A DNA stretch of 64,000 nucleotides, taken from NCBI RefSeq assembly GCF_024297145.1, contig NZ_JANCTC010000001.1, forward strand, positions 62,001-126,000. Reading direction: 5' to 3'. The notes beneath the pieces are model-generated. The model saw only the letters and a list, made by a program, of their open reading frames with translations, was not told the DNA's origin and did not search any database. Below, piece by piece: positions 2,150 to 7,222 of the stretch. Source of the stretch: Mesorhizobium sp. LMG 17147. GTDB lineage: Bacteria; Pseudomonadota; Alphaproteobacteria; Rhizobiales; Rhizobiaceae. Every line of letters starts with the position of its first letter. The stretch's first letter is position 1. The position numbers and the translations under genes were made by a program.

Positions 2150-2175
2150 GGAACCCTGACGGGCAACAACACGTT
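2150..2175 (+). promoter_or_regulatory. Candidate EcfG promoter for the DUF427 gene
   Basis: GGAAC at 2150-2154, a 17-base spacer, then CGTT at 2172-2175, 33 bases before the start codon at 2209. With the site at 2097-2121 it makes a divergent pair of stress promoters. Confidence 0.6.
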
Positions 2176-3108: not shown

Positions 3109-3134
3109 AACGCGCCATTGTCAGTGCGAGTTCC
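3109..3134 (-). promoter_or_regulatory. Candidate EcfG promoter for the HD hydrolase
   Basis: Minus-strand GGAAC (3134-3130), a 17-base spacer and CGTT (3112-3109), about 40 bases before the ATG at 3067. Confidence 0.6.
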
Positions 3135-3644: not shown

Positions 3645-5138
3645 TCAATCAGCCGCAATGCCAGCCATCGACATCTGAACGAAGCGCAGCGGCGCTTCCA
3701 GCGTCCAGGTGATGCCGTGCCTCTCAAATTCCAGGCGGCCGGTGCCGCTGAGCGCCTGCGGGGTGACGCGTTTGAGCACGACCGTTCCGAAACCGCGTCG
3801 CGTGTTTTCATCGACCAATGGTCCGTCCAGTTCCCGCCAGACAAGGCGGAAGCCGTCGCTGCCATCGGCGGCTGGCGTCACGGTCCATTCGACCTCGACC
3901 CGCCCGTCGAGGCGCGACAGCGCTCCGTGCTTTACCGAATTGGTGGCCAGCTCGTGAAAGGCAATGCCGAGATATTGCACCGCATTCGGCTGCAGCATGA
4001 TCATCGGCCCGCTCATCGACAGCCTGGCCTGTGTCGCGAAGGCCTTGGTCTGGGCATGGATTAGTTCGCCGATGGTCGCGCCACGCCATTCGGCATCGAC
4101 CAGCAGATCGTGTGATTCCGAAAGTGCCATGATGCGTTCCCGGACCTGGGAAAGGAAAGCCTCTGGCGTACCCGCCAGCTTGCTGGTCTCGCGGATCATC
4201 GAGACGATCACCGAATACTGGTTTTTAACGCGATGGTTGACTTCGCGCATGAGTGTGCGGATACGCCGTTCGCTGTCCTTGTGCGGGCTGATGTCGCGCG
4301 CGATCTTGGAGGCCCCGACGATACGCCCGATGCCGTCGCGTATCGGCGAAATGGTGAGCGAAACCGGTACCAGGGTGCCGTCCTTGCGCTGCCGGATAGT
4401 CTCGTATGAAGGGATCCGTTCGCCGGCGCGAATGCGGCTGATGATCATGGCTTCCTCATCCAGATGGTCGGGCGGGATGAGCATCGTCACCGGGCGACCG
4501 ATCGCCTCCGCCGGCGTGTAGCCGAACAGGCGTTGTGCCGCGTCGTTCCAGCTGGTGATAATGCCGTTCAGGTCTTTCGACACGATCGCGTCCATCGAAG
4601 ATTCGACGATGGCAGCGAGCCTTATGCTGGCGTCGTCAGCCAGCGCCTGAGTGCGCAGGTCGAGCAAGGTGTTGATGGCGCCGACGACCTCGCCGTTCGC
4701 ATCGCGAAGCAGGACCGGATGCGCGCTGAACGGGATGAACTGGCCGTCCGGCCGCTCGGCGATCGCCCGGCCCCCAGGAACGTCCCGCTCCTCCAGCAAG
4801 GCAACGGCCATCGGACATTCGTCGTGCGCCATCGGCCGTCCGTCGAGGTGGCGAAGCTTCCATGATCCGCACCAGCGGTCCTGGCCGATAACCGGACGAT
4901 ATCCCCAGAGATCGGCAGCGGCTTCATTGAAGAACGAGATGTAGCCTTGTCTGTCGGTGGTGTAGACAGCCACAGGCAACGCCTGCATCAGATCGGCGGA
5001 GGAAACTTGCGGGATTCCGCCAGTCTTTAGTTCAACGACGTCCACCAGTCCCCCGCTCCGCTTGGCTTGCCGACGGATTGCTACGTCATCTAAATGCGCG
5101 CGAGCGTTTTCGGTTCCGTTCGATCCGCTTTCGGACAT
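3645..5138 (-). CDS. PAS-PAS HWE-family sensor histidine kinase
   Basis: A 497-residue soluble kinase with two PAS domains (about 50-160 and 170-285) and a C-terminal HWE histidine kinase module. The phosphoacceptor is His302 in EVNHRVKNQ, the N box is HELATNSVKHG (395-405), the family's W-x-E is in VWRELDG, and the G box is RRGFGTVVLKR. HWE kinases often feed single-domain or PhyR-type receivers in alphaproteobacteria; the partner here is unknown and no receiver lies nearby. There is no membrane segment, so the signal should be intracellular, perhaps redox, light or a small ligand sensed by PAS. The ATG directly follows the TGA of ku (TGAATG), so the two are probably translationally coupled and co-transcribed from the stress promoter upstream of ku. 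Confidence 0.92.
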   Translation of the reverse strand: MSESGSNGTENARAHLDDVAIRRQAKRSGGLVDVVELKTGGIPQVSSADLMQALPVAVYTTDRQGYISFFNEAAADLWGYRPVIGQDRWCGSWKLRHLDGRPMAHDECPMAVALLEERDVPGGRAIAERPDGQFIPFSAHPVLLRDANGEVVGAINTLLDLRTQALADDASIRLAAIVESSMDAIVSKDLNGIITSWNDAAQRLFGYTPAEAIGRPVTMLIPPDHLDEEAMIISRIRAGERIPSYETIRQRKDGTLVPVSLTISPIRDGIGRIVGASKIARDISPHKDSERRIRTLMREVNHRVKNQYSVIVSMIRETSKLAGTPEAFLSQVRERIMALSESHDLLVDAEWRGATIGELIHAQTKAFATQARLSMSGPMIMLQPNAVQYLGIAFHELATNSVKHGALSRLDGRVEVEWTVTPAADGSDGFRLVWRELDGPLVDENTRRGFGTVVLKRVTPQALSGTGRLEFERHGITWTLEAPLRFVQMSMAGIAAD

Positions 5139-5972
5139 TCAGGCCGATCTGCGTTTCGCGGCCGTTCCCCGACCTTTGTTAGGAGCCTTGCCGCCTTCCT
5201 GCGCCAGGCTTCTGCGCAGAATATCGGCGAGGTTGACGACATTCGTCCTCGGCGCAGGTGCCGGCTTGGGCGGTTTCTTGCCCTTGCGTTTGGCTTCGAT
5301 CATCGCAACCAGCGCCTGTTCATAAGTGTCTTCGAACTTCGACGGGTCGAATTTGGCGGGCTTCTTGTCGATCAGCAATTGCGCGATTTCCAGCATCTCG
5401 GGATCGGACTTGCGAGCCTTCAGTCCTTCGAACACCGCGTCGGTTGCGACCACTTCATTGTGGTTGCGTAATTCCGTCATCACCATGCCCTTGCCCAGCG
5501 GCTGGATCAGCACCTCTCGGCCTCGCTGGTACAGCACGACGCAGGAGCGGGCTGCCACTTTCTTCCTGGCCATGGCGTCCCGGATCACCGCGAAGGCCTC
5601 AGTGGAGGGCGCGTCGGCCGGGACCAGATAATAGGGCTTTTCGAGGTAGCGTGCGTCGATTTCGGCGGTGGGCACAAACTCGCCGATCTCGAGCGTGTGC
5701 TGCGATACCATCTTTAGTTTCTTGATTTCGTCCGGTTCTATGCGGATGAATTCGCCCTTCTCGACTTCATAGCCCTTTACCTGGTCGGCAGCCTCCACCG
5801 TATCGCCGGTCTCCTCGTCGATATAAGCGCTCTTGACCGGGAGACCGTCCTTGCGGTTCAGGATCCTGAAATGCACTTTCTCGGCCTCGCTGACGGCGCC
5901 GATGATCTTGACGCCACAGGAAACCGATCCGACTTTCATAAAGCCCTTCCAGGCAGCTCGCGGCGTCGCCAT
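5139..5972 (-). CDS. ku: Ku, DNA-end-binding protein of bacterial NHEJ
   Basis: A 277-residue bacterial Ku with the usual opening AAWKGFMKVGSVSCGVK, the central Ku core (for example EIGEFVPTAEIDARY and KPYYLVPA) and a basic C-terminal tail (KRKGKKPPKPAPAPR, then KGRGTAAKRRSA) typical of tail-bearing rhizobial Ku. It binds double-strand breaks as a homodimer and recruits ligase LigD; no ligD is seen in the window. ATG at 5972 is chosen, with an in-frame ATG at 5981 as alternative. It is divergent from the NUDIX gene, sharing a palindromic stress promoter, and the HWE kinase gene follows without a gap. Confidence 0.95.
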   Translation of the reverse strand: MATPRAAWKGFMKVGSVSCGVKIIGAVSEAEKVHFRILNRKDGLPVKSAYIDEETGDTVEAADQVKGYEVEKGEFIRIEPDEIKKLKMVSQHTLEIGEFVPTAEIDARYLEKPYYLVPADAPSTEAFAVIRDAMARKKVAARSCVVLYQRGREVLIQPLGKGMVMTELRNHNEVVATDAVFEGLKARKSDPEMLEIAQLLIDKKPAKFDPSKFEDTYEQALVAMIEAKRKGKKPPKPAPAPRTNVVNLADILRRSLAQEGGKAPNKGRGTAAKRRSA

Positions 5973-5998
5973 GTCAATCACTCATTTGCCGAACGGAC

Positions 5999-6025
5999 GG
6001 AACGGCTGCGAGCCGAAATCGTTCC
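5999..6025. promoter_or_regulatory. Palindromic bidirectional EcfG promoter between ku and nudix
   Basis: On the plus strand GGAAC (5999-6003), 16 bases, CGTT (6020-6023). On the minus strand GGAAC (6025-6021), 16 bases, CGTT (6004-6001). Both match the full consensus, so one 27-base element can serve ku (start 5972) and the NUDIX gene (start 6098). Confidence 0.65.
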
Positions 6026-6097
6026 GCCGTGGCAGGCTGGTCCATACGCCGGCCCGGACGAGAACATTCGGTTCATTTTCGTCAGGGGAATAGCGGA

Positions 6098-6562
6098 ATG
6101 GCCAAACGCAGCGCAGGGTTGCTCATTTATCGCCAAAGCCGAGGTTCACTTCAGGTGCTGCTGGTGCATCCCGGCGGCCCATTCTGGGCGAAGAAGGACG
6201 ACGGCGCATGGTCGATCCCGAAGGGCCTGGTCGACGAGAACGAGGACGAACTGGCGGCGGCAAAACGCGAAGCCGAAGAGGAGCTCGGGGTCGCCATCGA
6301 TGGAGTTTTCGAACACCTTGGCAGCTACCGGCAGCCGGGCGGCAAGCTCGTCGTCGCATGGTGCGTCGAAGCGGATTTCGACAGCGACGCCATAAGCAGC
6401 AACACCTTCGTCATGGAATGGCCGCCAAGGTCCGGCTCGATGAAGGAATTTGCCGAAGTCGACAGAGCGGGCTGGTTCTCCCTGCCTGACGCCAACCTCA
6501 AGATACTGAAAGGCCAGCGCGCCATGCTGGCGGATTTGGCCGGTCGGCATGGCGACCCATGA
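6098..6562 (+). CDS. NUDIX hydrolase
   Basis: A 154-residue NUDIX protein. The Nudix box GLVDENEDELAAAKREAEEE with following LGV matches GX5EX7REUXEEXGU, supplying the metal-binding glutamates. An upstream WAKKDDGAWSIPKG segment is typical of the group annotated as diadenosine polyphosphate or nucleotide hydrolases. The exact nucleotide substrate cannot be told. The start at 6098 is supported by AGGGGA; an in-frame upstream ATG at 6029 would start in the middle of the promoter leader. It belongs with ku and alkB as a probable nucleotide-pool or DNA-maintenance gene and is divergent from ku. Confidence 0.92.
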   Translation: MAKRSAGLLIYRQSRGSLQVLLVHPGGPFWAKKDDGAWSIPKGLVDENEDELAAAKREAEEELGVAIDGVFEHLGSYRQPGGKLVVAWCVEADFDSDAISSNTFVMEWPPRSGSMKEFAEVDRAGWFSLPDANLKILKGQRAMLADLAGRHGDP

Positions 6563-6604
6563 AATCGGATCGGCTCAGTACTTCAGGGCGGCGCCTGGCT
6601 TGCC

Positions 6605-7222
6605 TTACGGCGCTATCCCAAGCGAATTTTGAGCGCGCAACGTGCGCAATGTGATCGAATAGCGGTGCTCGGCGACCGGCGGAATGCTGTGCTCCCATTC
6701 GTTGCGCGCAGCACCCGTCATCAAATAGGCTGATCTTGGCTCGACGGTGACCGTCTTGCGATCCCATCGCGTGCCGTTTTTCCGGCGCAGGCGGAAGCTG
6801 CAGGCGGCCAGCAGCGAAACGCCGGCGATCACCTCGAAATGAGGCTTGTCGCGGTGCCAGCCGATACCGGCGCCCGGACGGTATTCGTTGATCAGCACCT
6901 GCACGAAGGTTTCGGCCGGCAGGCGGGCCAAGGCTGCAACTTTGTCCCTGAGCGGCAGCAGAAAGCCGGGTATCGGCGGTGCTTCGACGACTTCGCGCCG
7001 GTCGTAGTCGTAACGCAGCCCGAAGCCGACCACCCGCCGGTTTGCCAGATGGCCGTGAAAGTCGAAGGGCTGAAAAGGCAGGCCTGCGAGCTGGCTTGCC
7101 AACGCTGCTTCCTCGTCCGGCGTGATCAGTTCGGGCCGGTAGCGGAATCCTTCCGGCAGGTCGTCGGAGGCGGCAAAGAGATCGCCCTGACGGGCTGCAG
7201 CCGATGTCTTGAGTGGTAGCAT
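6605..7222 (-). CDS. alkB: AlkB-family 2-oxoglutarate/Fe(II) dioxygenase
   Basis: A 205-residue AlkB-type dioxygenase that in the family oxidatively removes alkyl groups from damaged bases. Iron ligands are His and Asp of GWHRDKPHF and His of EWEHSIPP. The 2-oxoglutarate-binding arginines lie in HRYSITLRTL, and the substrate-side motif NEYRPGAGIGWH is intact. Size and motif order fit the ALKBH2/AlkB-like bacterial group. The start is the ATG at 7222; the preceding TTG in frame is less likely. It converges on the NUDIX gene and diverges from the KTSC gene. No classical ada promoter was recognised upstream. Confidence 0.9.
   Translation of the reverse strand: MLPLKTSAAARQGDLFAASDDLPEGFRYRPELITPDEEAALASQLAGLPFQPFDFHGHLANRRVVGFGLRYDYDRREVVEAPPIPGFLLPLRDKVAALARLPAETFVQVLINEYRPGAGIGWHRDKPHFEVIAGVSLLAACSFRLRRKNGTRWDRKTVTVEPRSAYLMTGAARNEWEHSIPPVAEHRYSITLRTLRAQNSLGIAP

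Follow-up and report, generated by a model that had tools for sequence, protein, structure and literature searches.

A candidate two-way EcfG promoter between divergent ku and NUDIX hydrolase genes in a small Mesorhizobium lineage

A Symmetric Element Between ku and a NUDIX Gene

The divergent genes for the end-joining protein Ku and a NUDIX hydrolase in Mesorhizobium sp. LMG 17147 have between them a 27-base element that reads as an exact EcfG-type promoter on both strands. We propose that the EcfG promoter of ku also drives the NUDIX gene, which would make the element a shared on-signal that co-induces both genes and not a switch between them. From the sequence evidence we place the probability of this reading at roughly 0.56. 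The relevant features of the window (the whole 64-kb stretch of DNA that was analysed) are the following.

3645–5138 with stop (3648–5138 without), minus strand: PAS-PAS HWE histidine kinase (PF07536 HWE_HK, E 1.5e-21; PAS families)
5139–5972 with stop (Ku 5142–5972), minus strand: ku, non-homologous end-joining protein (PF02735, E 2.6e-35; TIGR02772, 252.7 bits at a cut-off of 150)
5999–6025, no strand: symmetric element GGAACG-N15-CGTTCC, 27 bases, exact on both strands
6001–6025, minus strand: EcfG-type promoter of ku, with GGAAC (-35) at 6025–6021, 16 bases and CGTT (-10) at 6004–6001; 28 bp to the ku ATG
5999–6023, plus strand: candidate EcfG-type promoter toward the NUDIX gene, putative in function, with GGAAC (-35) at 5999–6003, 16 bases and CGTT (-10) at 6020–6023; 74 bp to the ATG
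6026–6097, plus strand: NUDIX leader, variable and with indels in an alignment of relatives
6098–6562 with stop (6098–6559 without), plus strand: NUDIX hydrolase (PF00293, E 1.2e-14; dN/dS 0.05–0.29 in the clade)

The element, read directly from positions 5999–6025, is GGAACGGCTGCGAGCCGAAATCGTTCC. A pattern scan found GGAAC-N16-CGTT exactly on each strand, in the full form GGAACG-N15-CGTTCC, which confirms the full-consensus reading in both directions described in the initial annotation. The palindrome consists of two 6-base arms around an asymmetric 15-base centre. The -35 box of each direction overlies the -10 box of the other; GG at 5999–6000 belongs to the -35 box of the NUDIX direction alone and lies outside both ku boxes, and CC at 6024–6025 belongs to the -35 box of ku alone, outside the NUDIX boxes. 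This overlap agrees with the earlier suggestion that two polymerases would exclude each other at the element, as judged from geometry. For bidirectional promoters of E. coli, binding of one polymerase at a time is stated in PMC12825309.

The motif GGAAC-N16-CGTT has been published as the EcfG motif of Rhizobium etli (PMC3892343) and also of Sphingopyxis granuli (PMC7083833). The window contains six exact readings of it where 0.44 are expected, and none of 100 shuffles reached six; two of the six are the element itself. The reverse complement of GGAACG, which is the -35 box with the next base, is CGTTCC, the -10 box with the next two. Because the boxes are thus nearly complementary, a one-way promoter with a 16-base spacer needs only three more bases to be read both ways: G after GGAAC, and CC after CGTT.

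In the mechanism that we propose, the element would be the ku promoter of EcfG, the general stress response sigma factor, and in one small Mesorhizobium lineage a NUDIX gene would have come to lie divergent beside this older promoter. With the three extra bases the opposite strand would be an equally perfect EcfG promoter. Upon stress, a single EcfG-RNA polymerase at a time would load, in one orientation or the other, and binding in one orientation would cover both boxes of the other. One stress signal would then co-induce ku, together with the kinase gene, and the NUDIX hydrolase. Since the consensus is the same in both directions, co-induction is expected under stress, with at most some mutual hindrance. 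We infer EcfG use, the start sites, transcription of the NUDIX gene, co-induction and the arrival of that gene at an older promoter from the sequence.

The Host Stress System and Other EcfG-Type Sites

In the genome (5.98 Mb) there are genes for PhyR, NepR and, adjoining nepR, an ECF-type sigma factor. We call this sigma factor EcfG, a name that it receives from its position beside nepR and its sigma-70 domains. The element matches known EcfG promoters exactly in consensus and spacing, and its alphaproteobacterial host has phyR and nepR with an ECF sigma gene beside the latter. Two more divergent pairs with EcfG-type sites were noticed in the genome; both have separate, back-to-back sites, whereas ku and the NUDIX gene have one overlapping element. 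The divergent phyR and nepR genes (locus L169) have back-to-back sites at positions 198066–198090 (minus) and 198099–198123 (plus) of contig C22. The second pair lies inside the window at 2097–2175, with sites at 2121–2097 (minus) and 2150–2175 (plus, 17-base spacer) between an endonuclease/exonuclease/phosphatase-family gene (minus) and a DUF427 gene (plus). The true start of the former gene is probably internal, as its listed ORF start is upstream of the site. Two further sites were noted on the side. An EcfG-type site with a 17-base spacer at 3109–3134 (minus) lies where an HD_4-domain gene begins and has a counterpart in three relatives (L003–L005). Elsewhere in the genome, a gene that by eye resembles a second Ku has an exact EcfG-type site 51 bp upstream (L194, G000 C54:318160–318184).

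The ku Side

The ATG of the HWE histidine kinase gene directly follows the ku stop, and the kinase gene also follows ku in L003–L005. The nearest named relatives of Ku are from Mesorhizobium. We compared 70 ku loci (69 relatives and the window), in a few of which the match starts several codons into the gene. In 38 of the 70, a GGAAC-N16/17-CGTT site precedes the matched ku start by 26–49 bp. Furthermore, ku-ligD is listed in the general stress regulon of Sphingopyxis granuli (PMC7083833). Together with the exact consensus, these observations bear out the earlier assignment of a stress promoter to ku, and we consider it very likely that the EcfG-type ku promoter, a prediction from sequence, is real. 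The arrangement differs from that in Sphingopyxis granuli, where the GSR-controlled ku is listed with ligD (PMC7083833); in the window ku has a histidine kinase gene behind it and faces a NUDIX gene.

Among the 38 ku loci with the site, CC follows the -10 box in the four members of the clade (the window, L003, L004 and L005) and in 0 of the 34 others. The ku relatives at 79–81% identity (L006, L007, L008 and L054) have GGAACG...CGTTCG and are one base short of symmetry. In these four loci and in L018 and L028 a DUF763 gene is divergent beside ku, a possible repair association. Another 15 ku loci carry GGAAC-N17-GTTCC, with TGTT at the -10 position, 52–59 bp before ku (L012, L015, L019, L020, L021, L026, L042, L045, L050, L051, L059, L062, L063, L069 and L070). 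This inverted repeat is 27 bases long, as is the ku/NUDIX element; no conserved divergent gene was seen at these 15 loci, where one candidate was tried by tblastn. The Ku tree was built from 62 loci and the window, and seven of the 69 loci were left out as too short; it singles out no sister group of the clade. Among plasmid records, 263 matched window positions 5000–7200, none of them over 80% of the query at a single place.

The NUDIX Side

A relative of the NUDIX gene is present in 55 of the 61 genomes searched, and from these 55 genomes 30 loci were inspected: the window's own, one other clade member and 28 outside the clade. None of the latter 28 has GGAAC-N16/17-CGTT, with up to one mismatch, in the 160 bp upstream, so that in this sample the link between the NUDIX gene and an EcfG-type site is confined to the clade. 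In the NUDIX tree, which includes 28 other proteins from the genus, the four clade proteins group together (91/83), a placement compatible with relocation as well as with replacement. Only distant relatives were found among known structures (six distinct sequences, best E 2.9e-6), and matches to NCBIfam families were below the cut-off.

Several observations bear on whether the NUDIX gene is transcribed from the element. A scan of 5900–6200 gave two terminator-like matches, one of which, a weak match at 6054–6071 (plus) with a 5-pair stem and an 8-base loop, is in the NUDIX leader and is mildly against transcription from the element. When the bases outside the boxes were scored with a matrix of 31 other sites, which separates poorly, the NUDIX direction scored -2.28 and the ku direction 0.39, with medians of -1.24 for other intergenic sites and -1.65 for coding sites. 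On this poorly separating matrix the NUDIX direction thus resembles a chance site. A sigma-70 scan of 5900–6200 gave no match, with about zero expected in such a stretch. No second NUDIX copy was found in the genome at E <= 0.001, so the gene at 6098 needs some promoter. Overall, we regard NUDIX transcription from the element as somewhat more probable than not.

How Often Symmetry Arises

Exact GGAAC-N16-CGTT is not enriched genome-wide, with 83 readings vs 104 for a reversed-pattern control. The symmetric form GGAACG-N15-CGTTCC occurs twice in the 5.98-Mb genome (three times for the reversed-pattern control), and its second occurrence is inside an ORF of 231 amino acids. For the 33 exact sites outside called ORFs, 0.44 symmetric readings are expected from letter frequencies that include the element's own letters, and two are seen, both of them the element. 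For the 24 of these sites that have an ORF start no more than 250 bp away, 0.5 are expected. The ORF calls used here are rough, being made from length and third-position G+C and not with a gene finder.

Across the genus, the symmetric pattern was found in 81 of 146 genomes with N15, in 60 of 146 with N14 and in 50 of 146 with N13. This excess of N15 (Fisher p 0.019 and 0.0004, respectively, among genomes that are related) was considered as a sign of selection for two-way promoters and rejected, since this relatedness weighs on it and several of the families in which the pattern recurs lie in or near coding sequence. Thirty symmetric contexts from the 81 genomes were inspected, and 28 of them are not between divergent starts according to the rough ORF call. 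The two that are comprise ku/NUDIX itself (L130) and an isochorismatase/GFA-like pair (L118). The description of the element as unusual stands insofar as only four of the 146 genus genomes have it before ku, but not as regards the symmetry, because symmetric EcfG-like sites recur before other genes. We also rejected CC after the -10 box as a general extension of the consensus, as it is present in 0 of 31 other sites outside called ORFs in this genome and in none of the 34 ku sites from beyond the clade; in contrast, eight of 25 isochorismatase sites, which are related sequences, carry it.

Conservation in the Clade and at a Sister Locus

The symmetric form is present in all four genomes found with the ku/NUDIX pair (G000, G043, G093 and G120), and the ku element is absent from the other 142 of the 146 genus genomes, 15 of which were covered by a separate search. 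G043 corresponds to L003 (via L073) and G093 to L005 (via L130), with identity over 600 bp, and L004 was equated with G120 by the sequence of the element alone. The EcfG-type site toward the NUDIX gene is kept in L003–L005. Within the clade, fourfold sites differ by 8–16% in ku and by 5–15% in the NUDIX gene, and both genes are under purifying selection (dN/dS 0.09–0.19 for ku and 0.05–0.29 for NUDIX). Variable alignment columns number 0 of 12 in the arms, 2 of 15 in the centre, 2 of 26 in the ku leader and 9 of 72 in the NUDIX leader, which has 15 gapped columns. The difference between the arms and the remaining spacer columns (13 of 113 variable) has a Fisher p of 0.61, from four close genomes that give little power. 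Conservation as a proof of two-way function was therefore rejected, the divergence of the clade being too small.

A sister locus offers a comparison. The isochorismatase gene (PF00857) has an EcfG-type site upstream in 25 of 30 loci (L206–L235), which were taken from 102 genomes with a match. Eight of the 25 sites are fully symmetric. In the 17 asymmetric sites the bases after the -10 box are GC (11), TG (4), TC (1) and CT (1). A divergent gene that we call GFA-like by the look of its sequence was matched beside seven symmetric sites (three of them partial matches) and eight asymmetric ones. At this locus the divergent neighbour is thus found whether or not the site is symmetric, which weakens the case for symmetry being preserved for two-way use. 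The initial annotation had proposed an alignment in relatives as a check, looking for symmetry that is kept wherever the genes are kept. At ku/NUDIX this is what we see, in four of four genomes that are all close relatives, but at the isochorismatase locus symmetry is not kept despite the conserved divergent neighbour. In L108–L110 and L112 a DUF763 gene follows the isochorismatase gene.

Alternative Explanations

The element could be a one-way ku promoter with incidental symmetry, the NUDIX gene being driven by another promoter or not usefully from here. We regard this explanation as tentative, though it has to be taken seriously. Three extra bases suffice for symmetry, letter frequencies predict 0.4–0.5 symmetric readings among the intergenic sites of one genome, and the symmetric pattern found in 81 genus genomes lies away from divergent starts in 28 of the 30 contexts inspected. 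The isochorismatase sites, with a GFA-like neighbour beside symmetric and asymmetric forms alike, point the same way, as do the poor NUDIX-side score and the terminator-like match in the NUDIX leader. Incidental symmetry accounts less well for the position of the element, which is flanked by two divergent starts at fitting distances, and it leaves the single NUDIX gene (at E <= 0.001) in need of some other promoter. The co-induction of both genes from one element remains our preferred reading.

A true switch or balance, as put forward in the initial annotation, would have the polymerase bound one way repress the other direction, so that end-joining and nucleotide cleaning alternate. The full overlap should indeed bar simultaneous binding as far as geometry goes, and in E. 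coli bidirectional promoters compete when one direction is strongly activated (PMC12825309). However, as both directions carry the same consensus, a switch requires a factor that biases orientation, and we noticed no such feature. The two directions would also depend on a single sigma factor, and for five E. coli bidirectional promoters little competition is described at basal activity (PMC12825309). The switch is thus not upheld, and we consider it quite improbable. Less credit still is due to the inverted repeat as an operator for a dimeric regulator instead of a promoter pair. Its 6-base arms would be about two helix turns apart, and the GGAAC-N17-GTTCC repeat of the same length precedes 15 further ku genes. 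However, the CC that completes the symmetry is missing from every one of the 34 ku loci with both EcfG boxes beyond the clade, contrary to what an operator would lead one to expect, and on this ground the operator was discarded.

Comparison to Known Bidirectional Promoters

Two-way promoters are known for the housekeeping sigma factor, with a -10 box that is itself symmetric. Like the bidirectional promoters of E. coli, the element studied here is short and symmetric, would be bound by polymerase in two orientations singly, and lies between divergent genes, as those often do (PMC12825309). In the E. coli type the -10 element is shared and divergent starts are 10–23 bp apart in the five tested, and strong activation of such pseudo-symmetric sigma-70 promoters in one direction can repress the other (PMC12825309). 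In the ku/NUDIX element, the -10 boxes are not shared and are at opposite ends (6001–6004 and 6020–6023), the -35 and -10 boxes are exchanged, the sigma factor would be EcfG and the predicted starts, near 5994 (minus) and near 6030 (plus), are about 37 bp apart. It may nevertheless work like an E. coli bidirectional promoter despite this other geometry. A different kind of bidirectional arrangement is that of HrpL/hrpJ, which is described with adjacent sigma-54 and HrpL elements, and a Zur-like repeat is the subject of PMC3247240. No description of a two-way ECF promoter with exchanged boxes was found in the open literature searched, mostly at the level of listings. The ku/NUDIX element may represent a new geometry for a bidirectional promoter, in which the two directions exchange the -35 and -10 boxes used by an ECF sigma factor.

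If the element fires both ways, bidirectional promoters would have a second route of origin, through the near-complementarity between the -35 and -10 boxes that an alternative sigma factor recognizes. A gene could then join the general stress response simply by landing beside an existing promoter, and end-joining repair and nucleotide-pool cleaning would come under one stress signal. If the element fires one way only, it cautions against inferring function from symmetry. The wider proposal, in which ECF promoters with exchanged boxes fire both ways, the regulon grows by promoter capture and one-sided symmetric sites give antisense stress RNAs, appears doubtful to us at present. Candidate places for such antisense transcripts are three loci (L103, L104 and L131), where a symmetric EcfG-like site with no divergent start found near it lies shortly before a glucose/sorbosone dehydrogenase-family gene (PF07995 in L104).
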